DNA of 64,000 bases from Methanocaldococcus sp. (GTDB lineage Archaea > AGJL01 > Methanococci > Methanococcales > Methanocaldococcaceae): the NCBI RefSeq assembly GCF_024490875.1, contig NZ_JACCLX010000029.1:1-64000 (forward strand), given 5' to 3'. The notes below the pieces were generated by a model, which was not told the DNA's origin, did no database searches, and worked only from the letters and a program-made list of their open reading frames with translations. A program made the translations under genes and the position numbers. Below are positions 52,592 to 59,015 of the stretch, one piece after another (the first letter of the stretch is position 1; each line of letters begins with the position of its first letter).

Positions 52592-53710
52592 TTAATTTTT
52601 ACAACTATACATTACATCAATAACATCTTTTAATGTAGCATTAGTTTTTATTCCTTTTGAATTATAGTGAGTAACTGTGGCTTTAAAACCAAACTTTTTT
52701 AATTTATTTATAATATCTTTTATTGGTGGAACTGATATTTTTAAAATCTTTCCTAATTGGTGAGTATCGTAACAACCAACTTGATTTATTTCCGCTTCCT
52801 CACTAATGGCATTTAATATTTTTAAAACTCTCTCATTTAATTTTCTTTCCTCAGCTATTTTTAAAGCTTCATCAACGAGAGTTTTATCGTATAAATTACC
52901 TATATATAAAGGCCCTGAGAATCCTTTTTCATAACCTTCTTCAAATTTTTTAATTATCTTAATTCCATTAATATCTTTAACATAGCCAAGCATTTCAAAG
53001 GTTTTATCTGCCCTCTTAGCTCCTCTATCAGTAATTAAATATACTCTAACATAATGATCAGTAGAATGACAAAATACAGGTTTTAAAGATATTTCATATT
53101 TTGTAGCCATTCTCATAACATATCCTACCAAAACTCTCAATGCAAACTCATGGCAATCTCTACTAAATAATGGATATGCTAAATATTTCCTTAAACATGA
53201 TTTCTTAGATCTTCCACATAAAGCAGCTGTATCTGTTGCAGTTATACATAACAACCCATTTCTTGTAACTAATGCCCTAATAGCTTGGTCAATATAAGGA
53301 GATGGAGAGCCAAAGGGATCTAAATCTATAACATTGAAAAATCTAAAATGTTTTGATAAAAATGTGTTTGCATCTTCATTAAAAACTTTTATATTCTCAA
53401 TTTTATTCATTTTAGCATTATTTATTATTTTTTCATATGCCTTTGGATTTATGTCATTTAAGAAAACTTGTAAGTCTCCACGAAATTCTATTTCTTTTGC
53501 ATATCTAAGACCTCTAATCCCACTACCTGCCAAAGCGTCACATATATAGCATTTATCAACTTTATGATATAAATTTAAAAATGCTTGGACTATAACTATA
53601 CTTAAATCTCTACAAGTTTTCATTCTTGGGTTGTAAAAAACTTCGTCCTTCTTTGTAATTGTTAATTTATCTGGAACTTCAAAAATAACATCTCCCTCTT
53701 TTAAAATCAT
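52592..53710 (-). CDS. trm1: tRNA (guanine(26)-N(2))-dimethyltransferase
   Basis: Trm1 makes N2,N2-dimethylguanosine at position 26 of tRNAs, which prevents misfolding and helps heat stability. The 372-residue protein has KTCRDLSIVIVQAF, CDALAGSGIRGLRYAKEI (SAM loop), VIDLDPFGSPSPYIDQAIRAL (catalytic DPFGSP) and LCITATDTAALCG. The C-terminal domain includes VGCYDTHQLGKILKISVPP. The ATG at 53710 with GTGAG upstream is slightly favoured over one four codons earlier. Confidence 0.95.
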   Translation of the reverse strand: MILKEGDVIFEVPDKLTITKKDEVFYNPRMKTCRDLSIVIVQAFLNLYHKVDKCYICDALAGSGIRGLRYAKEIEFRGDLQVFLNDINPKAYEKIINNAKMNKIENIKVFNEDANTFLSKHFRFFNVIDLDPFGSPSPYIDQAIRALVTRNGLLCITATDTAALCGRSKKSCLRKYLAYPLFSRDCHEFALRVLVGYVMRMATKYEISLKPVFCHSTDHYVRVYLITDRGAKRADKTFEMLGYVKDINGIKIIKKFEEGYEKGFSGPLYIGNLYDKTLVDEALKIAEERKLNERVLKILNAISEEAEINQVGCYDTHQLGKILKISVPPIKDIINKLKKFGFKATVTHYNSKGIKTNATLKDVIDVMYSCKN

Positions 53711-53767
53711 AATCTCACTCATTATAAATTTGTTAAAAGAAAATAAAGAATAATTTTATATTTAGAT

Positions 53768-54997
53768 TTAAGTTCTATAATTTTTAATTAGTGAGTTGTT
53801 TTCGTTATATCCAATGCATAAATTTCTTATTGGACACTTTTTACAGTTTGGACTATCGTGATTAAAACAAAAGTTAGTTCCAATATATATTAAACCATCA
53901 TCAAAATCAGCTATTGAATAATTTACATTTTCTTCTTTATTTATAATTTTTATTAATAAGTTTGGAATGTGTTGAATTTCTATATTTCTTGGAGGTCTTT
54001 TATTTATTTTTAAATAGTTAATAACTAAGTCATCATATTCTTGTTTTAGATTTTCATCATTAATTGAAATTTTTTTACCTCTTAAATTTGTAACTCGAAT
54101 ATAATCTTTTTTACCTTTACCTCTTCCTTTTTGGATTACATCCCATTTTATATAATCTTTAATAGTACCTATTTTAGTTAAAAATCCACATCTAAATAAA
54201 ACTCTACCCGCATTACTATCAAATGGGACCTCATAAGAAATTCCAGTCCAACCAGTATCACTCCTTTTTTTAAGATTTAATCTATTTACATACAATTTCG
54301 CAAATAAATGGCACGCTTTATCTCCTATAGCACTTCCTAATCCATATCTTTCATTATCTTTTAAACCTCTCGCCATTAACTCAGCTGAATCATAACTTTC
54401 TAAATATTCAATAAGAGGTTCTATTGACTGTTTATTTTCTTTCTCCAAATCTTTTTCTAATAGTAAATACATAGCCAAAGGAGTGCCCCATCTATGTATT
54501 GAATAATCTAAAACCTGTTTAATCGGAACAATACCTCTTTGTGATTGTGCAAAGAATAAATTATACTTTGAAGGATTAGTATTGTTCAATTTTGCCCATG
54601 TTTCTGCTCTTATTTTTTTAACCGATTCATGTTGTTCAATTAAAGTATCAATTGATATTCCCAACTCTTTAAAAAAATCTAATGGTCTATGAAGAATTCT
54701 TATTTCTTCTCTATAAAGGTTAGTTATAACACCATTTAGCAGTTTTCTAACTCCTATAATATCTGGTCCCTGATCTAAAACGACCATTAACACCAAATAT
54801 CTTGCTAAAATTTCTCTCCTCGTAAATTTTCCATCTCTTCTATCTAAATCAGAATAATTTATTTCTCCATTTTTATCTAAAAAATGTTGAAATGGTTCAA
54901 CTTCACGTAAATCTGGTTTTAATTGATATTCTTTTCCAATCTCACATATTCTTTTAACTAAATCCTTTAAAAATTCTTCTATTGTATTACTATCCAT
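53768..54997 (-). CDS. HhH-GPD DNA glycosylase-like protein with Fe-S motif, beside a DNA methyltransferase
   Basis: A 409-residue protein that I match to the helix-hairpin-helix glycosylase fold, more distantly than endonuclease III. VLDQGPDIIG (Gln76) fits the SAQATD helix; YGLGSAIGDKACHLFAKLYV (about 218-237) fits the hairpin LPGVGRKTA, with Lys227 where the catalytic lysine lies; EVPFDSNAGRVLFR (Asp260) fits VDTHVxRV with the catalytic aspartate. The C-terminus has Cys377-x7-Cys385-x2-Cys388-x5-Cys394, one residue off the EndoIII [4Fe-4S] pattern. It is much longer than EndoIII (about 211), with an N-terminal extension and inserts. It follows the methyltransferase gene by 16 bases with GGTGTC before the ATG. 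It may be a restriction glycosylase/AP lyase or a mismatch-repair partner. The fold is inferred by eye. Confidence 0.7.
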   Translation of the reverse strand: MDSNTIEEFLKDLVKRICEIGKEYQLKPDLREVEPFQHFLDKNGEINYSDLDRRDGKFTRREILARYLVLMVVLDQGPDIIGVRKLLNGVITNLYREEIRILHRPLDFFKELGISIDTLIEQHESVKKIRAETWAKLNNTNPSKYNLFFAQSQRGIVPIKQVLDYSIHRWGTPLAMYLLLEKDLEKENKQSIEPLIEYLESYDSAELMARGLKDNERYGLGSAIGDKACHLFAKLYVNRLNLKKRSDTGWTGISYEVPFDSNAGRVLFRCGFLTKIGTIKDYIKWDVIQKGRGKGKKDYIRVTNLRGKKISINDENLKQEYDDLVINYLKINKRPPRNIEIQHIPNLLIKIINKEENVNYSIADFDDGLIYIGTNFCFNHDSPNCKKCPIRNLCIGYNENNSLIKNYRT

Positions 54998-55013
54998 TAT
55001 GACACCATTTACT

Positions 55014-55784
55014 TTATTTTTTTATAGTATTACTCTTATTAATCCACTTTATTAATCCATTCTCTTTTTGCCTTTCAATTTCTTCTAATCTCTTTTTTGC
55101 AAATTCATAATATTCTTTAACTATTTCAAAACCTAAATAATGTCTATTTAGCATTTTTGCAACAACACAAACCTGTCCAGATCCAAGGAAGGGATCAAAA
55201 ACTATATCTCCTTCATCACTTCCATATAGAATAATTTTTTTAACTAATTCAGTAGGCAATTTTGTTGGAGTTTTAACTTTACCTCTCCAATACTCCCTAT
55301 TTATTATCCAAACATCTTCTGGATAATGTTCTATTTTATTAAATTTGTATCTTTTTTCATCTTTAACAACAAATAAAATGTGGTAGTGGGATGTAACAAA
55401 TTTCCTTTTTGTAAAAACTCCAAATTGATATTTCCAAATAATGTGGTTTATTGTTATAAATCCTACATCATCCAATGCATTGAGAACATCCTTTAAATTT
55501 GTCCAACCAGAAAATACATACATACTCCCAGTTGGTTTTAATATTCTATATGCCTCTTTCATCCAATTATAAGAAAATTCGTAATATTTTTCTTTGGGAA
55601 TCTCATTGTAACCTTCTAAAACATTCTCATATTTTCTATTGTAGTTATTCTTTTTACCTTTAAAGTTAATTCCATATGGAGGGTCTGTAACAATTAGATC
55701 AATACTATCATCTGGAATGTCTTTCATTAAAACTAAACTATCTCCTAAATAAATATTGTCTATCTCAAATTTACCCAATTTCAT
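55014..55784 (-). CDS. DNA methyltransferase, beta class (N6-adenine or N4-cytosine)
   Basis: A 256-residue SAM-dependent DNA methyltransferase. Motif IV, TDPPYGINFKG (residues 33-43), comes before motif I, FDPFLGSGQ (196-204), the order of the beta class. DPPY favours N6-adenine but does not exclude N4-cytosine. KTPTKLPTELVKKIIL and GFEIVKEYYEFAKKRL are the other class features; the recognition region between is short, and the target sequence cannot be predicted. GGTGACTT precedes the ATG. It is the first gene of a two-gene unit with the glycosylase-like protein and lies 108 bases downstream of ileS on the same strand. Confidence 0.93.
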   Translation of the reverse strand: MKLGKFEIDNIYLGDSLVLMKDIPDDSIDLIVTDPPYGINFKGKKNNYNRKYENVLEGYNEIPKEKYYEFSYNWMKEAYRILKPTGSMYVFSGWTNLKDVLNALDDVGFITINHIIWKYQFGVFTKRKFVTSHYHILFVVKDEKRYKFNKIEHYPEDVWIINREYWRGKVKTPTKLPTELVKKIILYGSDEGDIVFDPFLGSGQVCVVAKMLNRHYLGFEIVKEYYEFAKKRLEEIERQKENGLIKWINKSNTIKK

Positions 55785-55892: not shown

Positions 55893-58800
55893 TTATTTCT
55901 TATTTATTCTTTCGATAGTTATTTTAACTCTATATATTTCCCCATTTGGAGTTTTTATTTCCCAATCTTTTGTATAGTCCTCTTTTATATCATCTACAAA
56001 TATTCCCCTTACTTCTCTTTCTATAATTTCCTTAAACTCATCTATATCTACTCCTTCAACTTTAACTTTAATTTTTTCTTCTATATCTAAGTCTAAATCT
56101 TTTCTCATTGCTTGAATTCTTCTTATAATTTCCCTCATTAACCCTTCTCTTATTAAATCATCAGTAATTTCAGTATTTATAAAGACAGTTCCCTTTGAAA
56201 ATTCAACTCCTGCAATGTGCTCAGGAACCTCTAACCTAATTTCAACATACTCTGGCTTAATTTCATATCCATCCAATATTACAGAACCTTCTTTTAATTT
56301 TTCCATTAACTCCTTAGGATCTACTTTTTTTAATATCTCAACGACCTTTGGAACTTCACTTCTATATCTCTTACCTAACTCTTTATAGTTTGGTTTTATT
56401 ATGTATTTGCTACCTTCAACTTCTCCAAATTTGATATTTTTGACATTACCCTGATTTTTTATTATGTATTTAAATCTCTCTACTGCTTTTTTAACCTCTT
56501 CCCCACCAGCAATAGTTATTTCTTTTAATGGATATCTTAAGGTGTATTTTATTTTATCTCTTCCTCTATAAATAGCGTCAACTATATCTCTAACTATTGC
56601 CATATCTCTCTCTAACTCTTCATCAATAAACTCTTCATCAACTTCTATTTTATTCATAAATATACTTTCTTCCATATCTTCTGTTTTTAAGTTTTGATAT
56701 ATTGCCTCAGCTACATGAGGAGATACAGGAGCCATTATTATAGATAACTTTAATAAGACATAGTAGAGTGTTTGATATGCTGCTAATTTATCATAGTCAT
56801 CTTTTTCTTTCCATGTTCTATCTCTAATCAATCTAATATACCATCTACTTAAGTCATTTAATATGAAATCTTTTAATGTCCATGTGTATGTGTGGAAATA
56901 TGGAATATCAAGGTTTTCAATTGCTATTTTGGCAACAGTATTTACTCTACTTAAAATCCATCTATCTTCATCTTTTAGATGTTCAAAGTATTTTTTATCA
57001 GGTTTAAAGTTATCTAACACCATGTAATTTACAGCGAACATATAGGCGTTCCATAAGGTATTAAATAAACTTAAAACATCATCCATTTCACTCCATACAA
57101 ACCTTAAATCTTCCCAAACCTTGTTTGCACTTAAAAGATAGAATCTTAATAAATCAGCCCCATATTTTTCAACGACATCATCTGGATTAACTATATTTCC
57201 TAAACTCTTACTCATCTTTTCTCCACGTTCATCCAAAGTAAAGCCGTGCATTAAACATTTTTTGTATGGGATGTCATTGAATACAATTGCTGAAAGTGCA
57301 TGTTGTGAATAAAACCACTTAGTAACTTGGTCATGCCCTTCTGTTATAAAGTCAGCTTTTTTTAATGTTTTTGAACCAATTGAAGCATAAGGAGCTAATC
57401 CAGAGTCAAACCAAACATCTAAGACATCTGGAACTCTCTCCATTACTCCTCCACATTCACATCTCAATTTTATTTTATCAACTGTTGGTTTATGCAAATC
57501 TTTAATCTCTCCAACTTCATCTTTATTTATCATTCTCTCCTCTAATTCTTCAACACTTTCCACAACTATATATTTTCCACATTTCTCACAAACCCATACT
57601 GGCAATGGAATTCCCCAATACCTCTGCCTACTTATATTCCAGTCCCCAACAAACTTAACTCCATTTATATATCTTGTTTCAACCCAGTGAGGTATCCATT
57701 TAACAGTTTTTGCATGCTCTATAATATTATCTTTAATTTTTGATATCTCTAAAAACCACTGCTCAGTAGCTCTAAACAAGAGAGGTGTTTTACATCTCCA
57801 ACAGTGTGGATAACTATGTTTTATTTTTCCAACATAAACTAACAATCCTTTATCTTTTAGAGTTTCTATTATTTCATTATCTGCATCTTTAACAAAAACT
57901 CCTTTCCATTTTCCTTCTATGTATTTACCTTCATCATCTATTGGTGAATATATAGGCAGATTGTATTTTTTACCAACTTCAAAGTCCTCTTCCCCATGTC
58001 CAGGAGCTGTGTGAACTAAACCAGTTCCTCCCTCTAAGGTTACATGCTCCCCTAATATTATAGTATGAGCATTTTCTAATTTAGCAAATTCTTTCTGCCT
58101 CTCATTCTCATCTAATAATGGATGAATATATTTTATTCCTTCTAACTCTTTTCCTTTAACTTTTTTAATTATTTTGTAGTTTTTGATATTGTATAATTTT
58201 TTAGCTTTGTTTATAACATCCTCAACTAACTTTTCAGCAATAATCCAAACTTCTTTTTTGTCATCAAATTCAACTTCTACATAAGCATAGTCATAGTTTG
58301 GATGTACTGCAACAGCCAAGTTAGCTATTAAAGTCCATGGAGTTGTTGTCCAAATTATAATATAGGTGTTTTCTTCATCTTTTAATTTAAATTTTACATA
58401 AACAGATGGATCATAAACTTCTTTATACTCTCCTCTAACTTCGTGCTCTGCTAAGGCAGTTTCACATCTTGGACACCAATAGACAACCCTCAAATCTCTT
58501 GTTAATAATCCTTTCTCATGAGCAACTTTTAATGTCCACCAACCTATCTCCATATACTCCTTAGTTATTGGCATGTATGCATTTTCCCAATCTAACCAAA
58601 CTCCTAAGTTTTTAAACTGATTTTCCATAATTTCTTTGTGTTTTAAAGCAAATTCTTTACATTTTTCAATAAATTGTTCTACACCAATTTTTGTTTCAAT
58701 CTCTTTCTTGTTTTTTATTCCAAACTCATTTTCAACTTTAACCTCTATTGGTAAGCCATGCATGTCCCATCCAGCTTTATCTAAAACATTATATCCTTGC

Positions 58801-59015
58801 ATTCTTTTAAATCTTAAATATGTATCTTTAATTATTTTATTCCATGCAGTTCCAAGATGTATTGCCCCAGAACAGTAAGGAGGTCCATCAACAAAATAAA
58901 ATTCTTTATTTCCTTCATTCTTTTTCTTTACTTTTTGATATATATCATTCTCTTCCCAGAATTTTTTTATTTTTTTGTCCAACTCTCTAAAATTAACTGG
59001 CCCTACACTTTTCAT
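55893..59015 (-). CDS. ileS: Isoleucyl-tRNA synthetase
   Basis: A 1040-residue class I synthetase charging tRNA-Ile. The HIGH-type motif is GPPYCSGAIHLGTAWNK (HLGT variant, about residues 46-58), and KMSKS is in DERGEKMSKSLGN (about 595). The editing domain includes TTTPWTLIANLAVAVHPNY and GTGLVHTAPGHGEEDFEVG. WCPRCETALAEHEV and CEKCGKYI are zinc-binding. The archaeal C-terminal extension is complete. GAGGTGAG precedes the ATG. The DNA methyltransferase unit lies downstream. Confidence 0.97.
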   Translation of the reverse strand: MKSVGPVNFRELDKKIKKFWEENDIYQKVKKKNEGNKEFYFVDGPPYCSGAIHLGTAWNKIIKDTYLRFKRMQGYNVLDKAGWDMHGLPIEVKVENEFGIKNKKEIETKIGVEQFIEKCKEFALKHKEIMENQFKNLGVWLDWENAYMPITKEYMEIGWWTLKVAHEKGLLTRDLRVVYWCPRCETALAEHEVRGEYKEVYDPSVYVKFKLKDEENTYIIIWTTTPWTLIANLAVAVHPNYDYAYVEVEFDDKKEVWIIAEKLVEDVINKAKKLYNIKNYKIIKKVKGKELEGIKYIHPLLDENERQKEFAKLENAHTIILGEHVTLEGGTGLVHTAPGHGEEDFEVGKKYNLPIYSPIDDEGKYIEGKWKGVFVKDADNEIIETLKDKGLLVYVGKIKHSYPHCWRCKTPLLFRATEQWFLEISKIKDNIIEHAKTVKWIPHWVETRYINGVKFVGDWNISRQRYWGIPLPVWVCEKCGKYIVVESVEELEERMINKDEVGEIKDLHKPTVDKIKLRCECGGVMERVPDVLDVWFDSGLAPYASIGSKTLKKADFITEGHDQVTKWFYSQHALSAIVFNDIPYKKCLMHGFTLDERGEKMSKSLGNIVNPDDVVEKYGADLLRFYLLSANKVWEDLRFVWSEMDDVLSLFNTLWNAYMFAVNYMVLDNFKPDKKYFEHLKDEDRWILSRVNTVAKIAIENLDIPYFHTYTWTLKDFILNDLSRWYIRLIRDRTWKEKDDYDKLAAYQTLYYVLLKLSIIMAPVSPHVAEAIYQNLKTEDMEESIFMNKIEVDEEFIDEELERDMAIVRDIVDAIYRGRDKIKYTLRYPLKEITIAGGEEVKKAVERFKYIIKNQGNVKNIKFGEVEGSKYIIKPNYKELGKRYRSEVPKVVEILKKVDPKELMEKLKEGSVILDGYEIKPEYVEIRLEVPEHIAGVEFSKGTVFINTEITDDLIREGLMREIIRRIQAMRKDLDLDIEEKIKVKVEGVDIDEFKEIIEREVRGIFVDDIKEDYTKDWEIKTPNGEIYRVKITIERINKK

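Follow-up and report, generated by a model that had tools for sequence, protein, structure and literature searches.

What does a protein that resembles a DNA-repair glycosylase do directly behind a DNA methyltransferase gene? This question is raised by a gene pair, here called M and R, in the window, which is the whole 64,000-nucleotide stretch of DNA that was analysed and comes from a Methanocaldococcus-like genome. The pair lies between ileS and trm1, and R is downstream of M with a gap of 16 bases (54998-55013). It is likely that M-R is a mobile Type II-like restriction-modification system in which R would act as an HhH-GPD glycosylase/AP lyase at unmethylated AGCT. The restriction-modification reading rests on the varied M partners of R, the loss of R with M kept and the avoidance of AGCT. 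Comparison gives good support to both the function and the target; the choice of base excision over hydrolysis is an inference from the fold and the conserved Lys/Asp pair. The features referred to in the text are as follows.

52592..53722, minus strand: trm1, flanking gene downstream of the M-R pair (context only)
53768..54997, minus strand: R, a 409-residue protein assigned to the HhH-GPD Fe-S proteins (TIGR01084, AlphaFold, Foldseek, invariant residues); predicted AGCT-specific restriction glycosylase/AP lyase, with base excision and AP lyase activity inferred, not shown
53816..53869, minus strand: Fe-S loop of R, C377-x7-C385-x2-C388-x5-C394, in the region matched by MutY/EndoIII Fe-S models
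54188..54232, minus strand: GPD segment of R, EVPFDSNAGRVLFRC, with the catalytic-type Asp260; D260, N262 and R265 invariant
54218-54220, minus strand: Asp260 codon, inside PFDSNAGRV
54281..54352, minus strand: helix-hairpin-helix segment of R, ERYGLGSAIGDKACHLFAKLYVNR, with Lys227; G219, G221, G225 and K227 invariant
54317-54319, minus strand: Lys227 codon, inside the hairpin GLGSAIGDKA
54770..54772, minus strand: Gln76 codon, in LDQGPD; invariant, and aligned by eye with Gln41 of EndoIII (SAQATD)
55014..55784, minus strand: M, a 256-residue beta-class N6-adenine/N4-cytosine DNA methyltransferase (PF01555, relatives CcrM and DpnA); predicted protector of AGCT, its methylation of AGCT being inferred
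55893..59015, minus strand: ileS, flanking gene upstream of the M-R pair (context only)

The methyltransferase and the predicted fold of R

M belongs to the beta class because motif IV (DPPY) precedes motif I (FxGxG). It matches PF01555 with an E-value of 6.7e-45, and its PDB relatives are CcrM and DpnA.

The assignment of R is based on sequence matches of the Fe-S region together with the fold given by AlphaFold and Foldseek. TIGR01084, the NCBIfam MutY model, matches the Fe-S region of window R at 2.5e-5 and matches 16 of 17 family members (best 1.7e-7), and PF10576, the EndoIII Fe-S model, weakly matches 9 of the 17. The Fe-S loop of the EndoIII/MutY branch is present in R, the cluster itself being inferred from sequence. 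R was rejected as a MutY equivalog since window R, matched only in the Fe-S region, scores 24 bits, far under the cut-off of 286.5. AlphaFold models were built with the family alignment for two proteins, window R (pLDDT 89.7) and a shorter relative, L010 (pLDDT 93.7). In Foldseek searches of the PDB, MutY/MUTYH were at the top for window R, and EndoIII-3, MUTYH and MutY were at the top for L010; the EndoIII-3 match had a probability of 1.00 and a TM of 0.52 by target length. The E-values of the EndoIII/MutY matches are weak (0.05-0.4), which is probably due to insertions that stretch the alignment, and R is ~200 residues longer than EndoIII. R is thus very likely, as the model predicts, an HhH-GPD protein with insertions.

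A referee may object that Pfam yields no notable match for R, that PF00730 (HhH-GPD) does not match it at E-values up to 10 and that R is not among the PF00730 matches in its own genome. We attribute the PF00730 miss to the sensitivity of the library and not to structure; it lowers the support for HhH-GPD membership and does not exclude it. When the core of R, minus the Fe-S loop, was compared with 58 HhH-GPD proteins by profile-profile comparison, only the GPD segment aligned (with VDThVfRv of EndoIII), and the score of 21.3 was inside the shuffled-control range (maximum 24.7) and not significant. The profile-profile comparison outside the Fe-S loop was therefore excluded from the proof of fold. 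Foldseek against the PDB gave no PD-(D/E)xK match for the R models, and no restriction model of PADLOC, Pfam or NCBIfam matches R. R as a PabI/HALFPIPE protein was also rejected, as the model is mainly helical and no PabI was among the Foldseek or PDB sequence matches.

In the AlphaFold model of R, the hairpin is followed by helix 226-239, which Lys227 opens, and Asp260 is directly ahead of helix 261-269, as in EndoIII. The equivalence of Gln76 to EndoIII Gln41 is only inferred from the alignment by eye. In 21 aligned members, for which the residue numbers are those of window R, the invariant residues include Q76, G77, D79, G225, K227, D260, S261, N262, G264 and R265; three of the four Fe-S cysteines are also invariant and the fourth is nearly so. 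Because they are invariant across the 21 members, the motifs are more than chance.

An earlier note, made from the sequence alone, had described the coordinates and the 16-base gap, a beta-class methyltransferase, Gln76 in VLDQGPD, Lys227 in GLGSAIGDKA, Asp260 in PFDSNAGRV and the C-x7-C-x2-C-x5-C motif; all of these held against the window sequence, with PF01555 and the order of DPPY and FxGxG supporting the methyltransferase. The likeness to endonuclease III that it had seen also held, by way of the TIGR01084 Fe-S region and AlphaFold/Foldseek and not by PF00730, and the structural check that it had proposed placed EndoIII/MutY on top without a PD-(D/E)xK match.

Distribution of R, its partners and its loss

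Scanning a single genome of each species returned 20 relatives of R, mostly 46-64% identical. The archaeal relatives come from DPANN, Thermoplasmata, Nitrososphaeria, Altiarchaeales and Methanococci, and the bacterial ones from Chloroflexi, Nitrospirae, Omnitrophota, Aminicenantes, Sumerlaeota, Ignavibacteria, Nitrospina, Thioalkalivibrio and a deep Firmicute; many are in metagenome bins, and single taxon assignments may err. Family membership is shown by comparison. In the phylum of the window 6 of 36 genomes have an R match, some only broken copies, and the counts in other phyla are 4/400, 3/398 and 1/399, with 4/35 in a fourth. The family is rare, patchy and horizontally spread among Archaea and many bacterial phyla. 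No relative of R was found in viral contigs or in phage and plasmid collections.

Obligate pairing is shown by the same comparison: an N6/N4 methyltransferase adjoins every intact R, both among the 19 loci taken first and among the further ones, and apart from R and M no gene is common to all 19. M is directly upstream on the same strand except at L012, where a divergent M is on the other strand. At least four kinds of M were distinguished, namely the window type (DPPY/F), a kind ~30% identical (L006, L009, L002), an SPPYW, m4C-like kind (L010, L019, L017, L013, L016) and a permuted kind (L020). Between L015 and L016 the R proteins are 63% identical and the M proteins 21%, and the R tree requires 5-6 switches from one kind of M to another. 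Since the kinds of M differ across the R tree, we conclude that R was repeatedly joined to unrelated methyltransferases.

In a Nitrospirae bin (L005:4620-5983) the pair sits between an ordinary nth (endonuclease III) and argG. This nth was considered as a third component and rejected, as it belongs to ordinary gene surroundings and recurs nowhere else.

The loss of R with M kept is also shown by comparison: at least six genomes have M beside a deleted, transposon-split or degenerate R. G005 and G006 encode an M with 98-99% identity to that of the window and cleanly lack ~1.3 kb with R, so that trm1 directly follows M. R is split by an IS607-like element beside an intact M in G010, frameshifted beside an intact M in G894 and truncated beside an intact M in G1266. 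R remnants without an intact M (G021, G026/L021) are likewise broken, and no intact R without M was found among the loci examined. This asymmetry fits a toxic restriction enzyme that depends on its methyltransferase; it speaks against a repair partner, which predicts no such asymmetry. The whole pair is absent from G001, where ileS and trm1 are ~70 bp apart.

The element in G010 (L008:1175-3178) lies inside R at about codon 135, encodes a 208-residue MerR-type serine recombinase and a 441-residue TnpB, and has no obvious target duplication. In G034 (L034, L024) an IS transposase follows an intact M, and a remnant of R (residues 273-409) starts at a contig end that is apparently the end of the same IS; R appears to have been broken there by this IS, which is different from that of G010.

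Avoidance of AGCT

AGCT was picked from the first five genomes, and another 22 R+ rows then served to test it. In the first five, no other 4-base palindrome was depleted in each of the three R+ genomes (AGCT O/E 0.56 in the genome of the window, 0.32 in G028 and 0.06 in the third) without being depleted in M. jannaschii (AGCT O/E 1.09). Among the 22 further rows, 21 were under 1 and 17 under 0.7. Values of 0.03-0.15 occur in several unrelated R+ phyla, and examples of strong depletion are G045 (0.06), G038 (0.06), G039 (0.07), L019 (0.11) and G037 (0.15). R- controls pool at 1.00-1.15 (other Methanocaldococcus 1.00, other Methanococci 1.11, Chloroflexi 1.08), except for an Omnitrophota group at 0.68. 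AGCT is the most depleted of 136 tetramers in 8 of 25 R+ rows, two of the eight being the same species. The R+/R- contrast is -1.64 log2 for AGCT and -0.59 for the next palindrome, and the two sets differ with a Mann-Whitney p of 7e-10 when the relatedness of rows is ignored. Avoidance of AGCT in genomes with R is thus shown by comparison. Since the depletion spans all flanks, the site is apparently just AGCT rather than a longer palindrome.

The R+ rows cannot be treated as independent, since several are Chloroflexi and R is identical in L116 and L019. Some samples are under 10 kb and three rows have a damaged R. Little or no avoidance was observed in G040 (1.03), L012 (0.93, from a 9.6 kb sample), L004 (0.79) and the genome of the divergent L020 (0.73). 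G040 and L012 may be recent arrivals or may have a changed site. The M of L011, in genome G040, is an odd DPPY kind. The M-only genome G005, at 0.77, lies between the R+ genomes and M. jannaschii, which fits a recent loss of R but also a partial effect of methylation.

Methylation alone was weighed as the cause of the depletion and rejected: the AGCT count of a published genome with an orphan m4C AGCT methyltransferase is still 0.69 of that expected from base composition, and the strongest R+ genomes, measured in the same crude way, have only 0.03-0.10. A second AGCT system may be the cause in some hosts and is not excluded. CTAG, GATC, GTAC and GGCC were rejected as the target as they are depleted about equally or more without R.

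In the genome of the window (G000, stretches L131-L150) CTAG, GCGC, GTAC and GGCC have O/E values of 0.04-0.31; their depletion is common to this genome and M. jannaschii and suggests further restriction systems.

Proposed mechanism, rival readings and known systems

In the mechanism that we propose, M would methylate AGCT (as m6A or m4C) and R would recognise the unmethylated site. R would excise a base by means of Asp260 and Lys227, in the manner of the corresponding pair of endonuclease III, and then nick the strand at the abasic site by beta-elimination. Incoming DNA would be destroyed by nicks or abasic sites in both of its strands. The excised base may be adenine, which is a guess from the resemblance to MutY and the PabI precedent. 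Without biochemistry, base excision, the base removed, the blocking by methylation and defence as the benefit all remain inferred. In a bolder reading, which we also consider likely, an Fe-S HhH-GPD repair fold evolved, independently of PabI, into a restriction enzyme with sequence specificity; it spread among Archaea and Bacteria and took on methyltransferases of unrelated m6A-like and m4C-like kinds as protectors of the same AGCT.

The main rival, considered unlikely, is that M-R is a restriction pair in which R hydrolyses phosphodiester bonds, the HhH-GPD fold only binding DNA and flipping bases while an unrecognised site cuts. The pairing, the asymmetry and the avoidance of AGCT are silent on chemistry, and the ~200 residues beyond EndoIII leave room for this reading. 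Against it, no hydrolytic nuclease match was obtained for R in Pfam, NCBIfam, PADLOC, PDB sequence or Foldseek searches, and Lys227 and Asp260, which a fold that only binds DNA would not need, are both invariant. The earlier note had offered two options, restriction by excision plus AP lyase and repair of methylation-caused mutations. The former is the better supported, its catalysis being inferred. The latter, in which R mends mutations or damage caused by its partner as Mig.MthI or Vsr does, is favoured by the HhH-GPD fold and by Mig.MthI, a glycosylase for T/G mismatches (PMC2714593) with a methyltransferase-linked gene. It is nonetheless very unlikely: the partners are N6/N4 and not m5C methyltransferases (PF01555 in the window and relatives), M often persists without R, and repair gives hosts no reason to avoid AGCT. 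Nor do m6A and m4C lead to T/G mismatches of the kind that Vsr and Mig.MthI mend. R could also be a modification-dependent (Type IV-like) glycosylase acting on modified phage DNA, with the methyltransferase an incidental neighbour. Phage-defence DNA glycosylases do exist (Brig1, PMC11078745); however, R is always beside a methyltransferase, and host avoidance of unmodified AGCT is unexpected if the enzyme is blind to host DNA, so that this reading is also very improbable.

Restriction by base excision was described for the PabI family (R.PabI, R.CcoLI), which has the HALFPIPE fold and the site GTAC (PMC4357717, PMC10273834), and to our knowledge it is not known outside that family. The restriction glycosylase proposed here shares with PabI its place next to a methyltransferase gene, the avoidance of its site by hosts and its frequent inactivation there (PMC4357717, PMC10273834), and excision of a base from the site unless it is methylated, with AP lyase activity, although for R these activities are only expected. 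It differs in its alpha-helical HhH-GPD fold with an Fe-S loop, its predicted site AGCT and its wide but sparse distribution. R resembles EndoIII/MutY in the predicted fold, the hairpin Lys, the Asp ahead of a helix, the Fe-S cysteine loop and a Gln near the base-flipping site, but it is roughly twice as large as EndoIII, has large insertions and an obligate methyltransferase partner, and is without a PF00730 match and far under the MutY cut-off. Mig.MthI, which mends T/G mismatches beside an m5C system, is likewise an HhH-GPD glycosylase encoded next to a methyltransferase gene, whereas R has N6/N4 partners and host site avoidance that points to restriction. Brig1, a glycosylase used for defence as R is proposed to be, belongs to the uracil-DNA-glycosylase superfamily and attacks glucosylated phage DNA, with no methyltransferase partner mentioned (PMC11078745).

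The earlier note had regarded an Fe-S HhH-GPD restriction partner as new. No description of an HhH-GPD restriction enzyme was found in the literature searched, which did not include REBASE or most subscription journals; prior annotation is possible. If the proposal is true, base-excision restriction arose more than once, with a second, unrelated fold that is the classic one of DNA repair, and repair glycosylases are able to become strictly sequence-specific on DNA without damage. The predicted AGCT site makes the M-R proposal directly testable. It would also follow that restriction enzymes outside nuclease libraries are missed beside 'orphan' methyltransferases. Orphan m4C AGCT methyltransferases without a restriction partner (HG11, HG16, HG19) are common in archaea (PMC10609329), and the orphan-type genome BD3 retains ~3,100 AGCT sites in 1.48 Mb (PMC6329791). 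HG11, HG16 and HG19 probably have the same methylation target as M; they are described as orphans, whereas M is paired with R.
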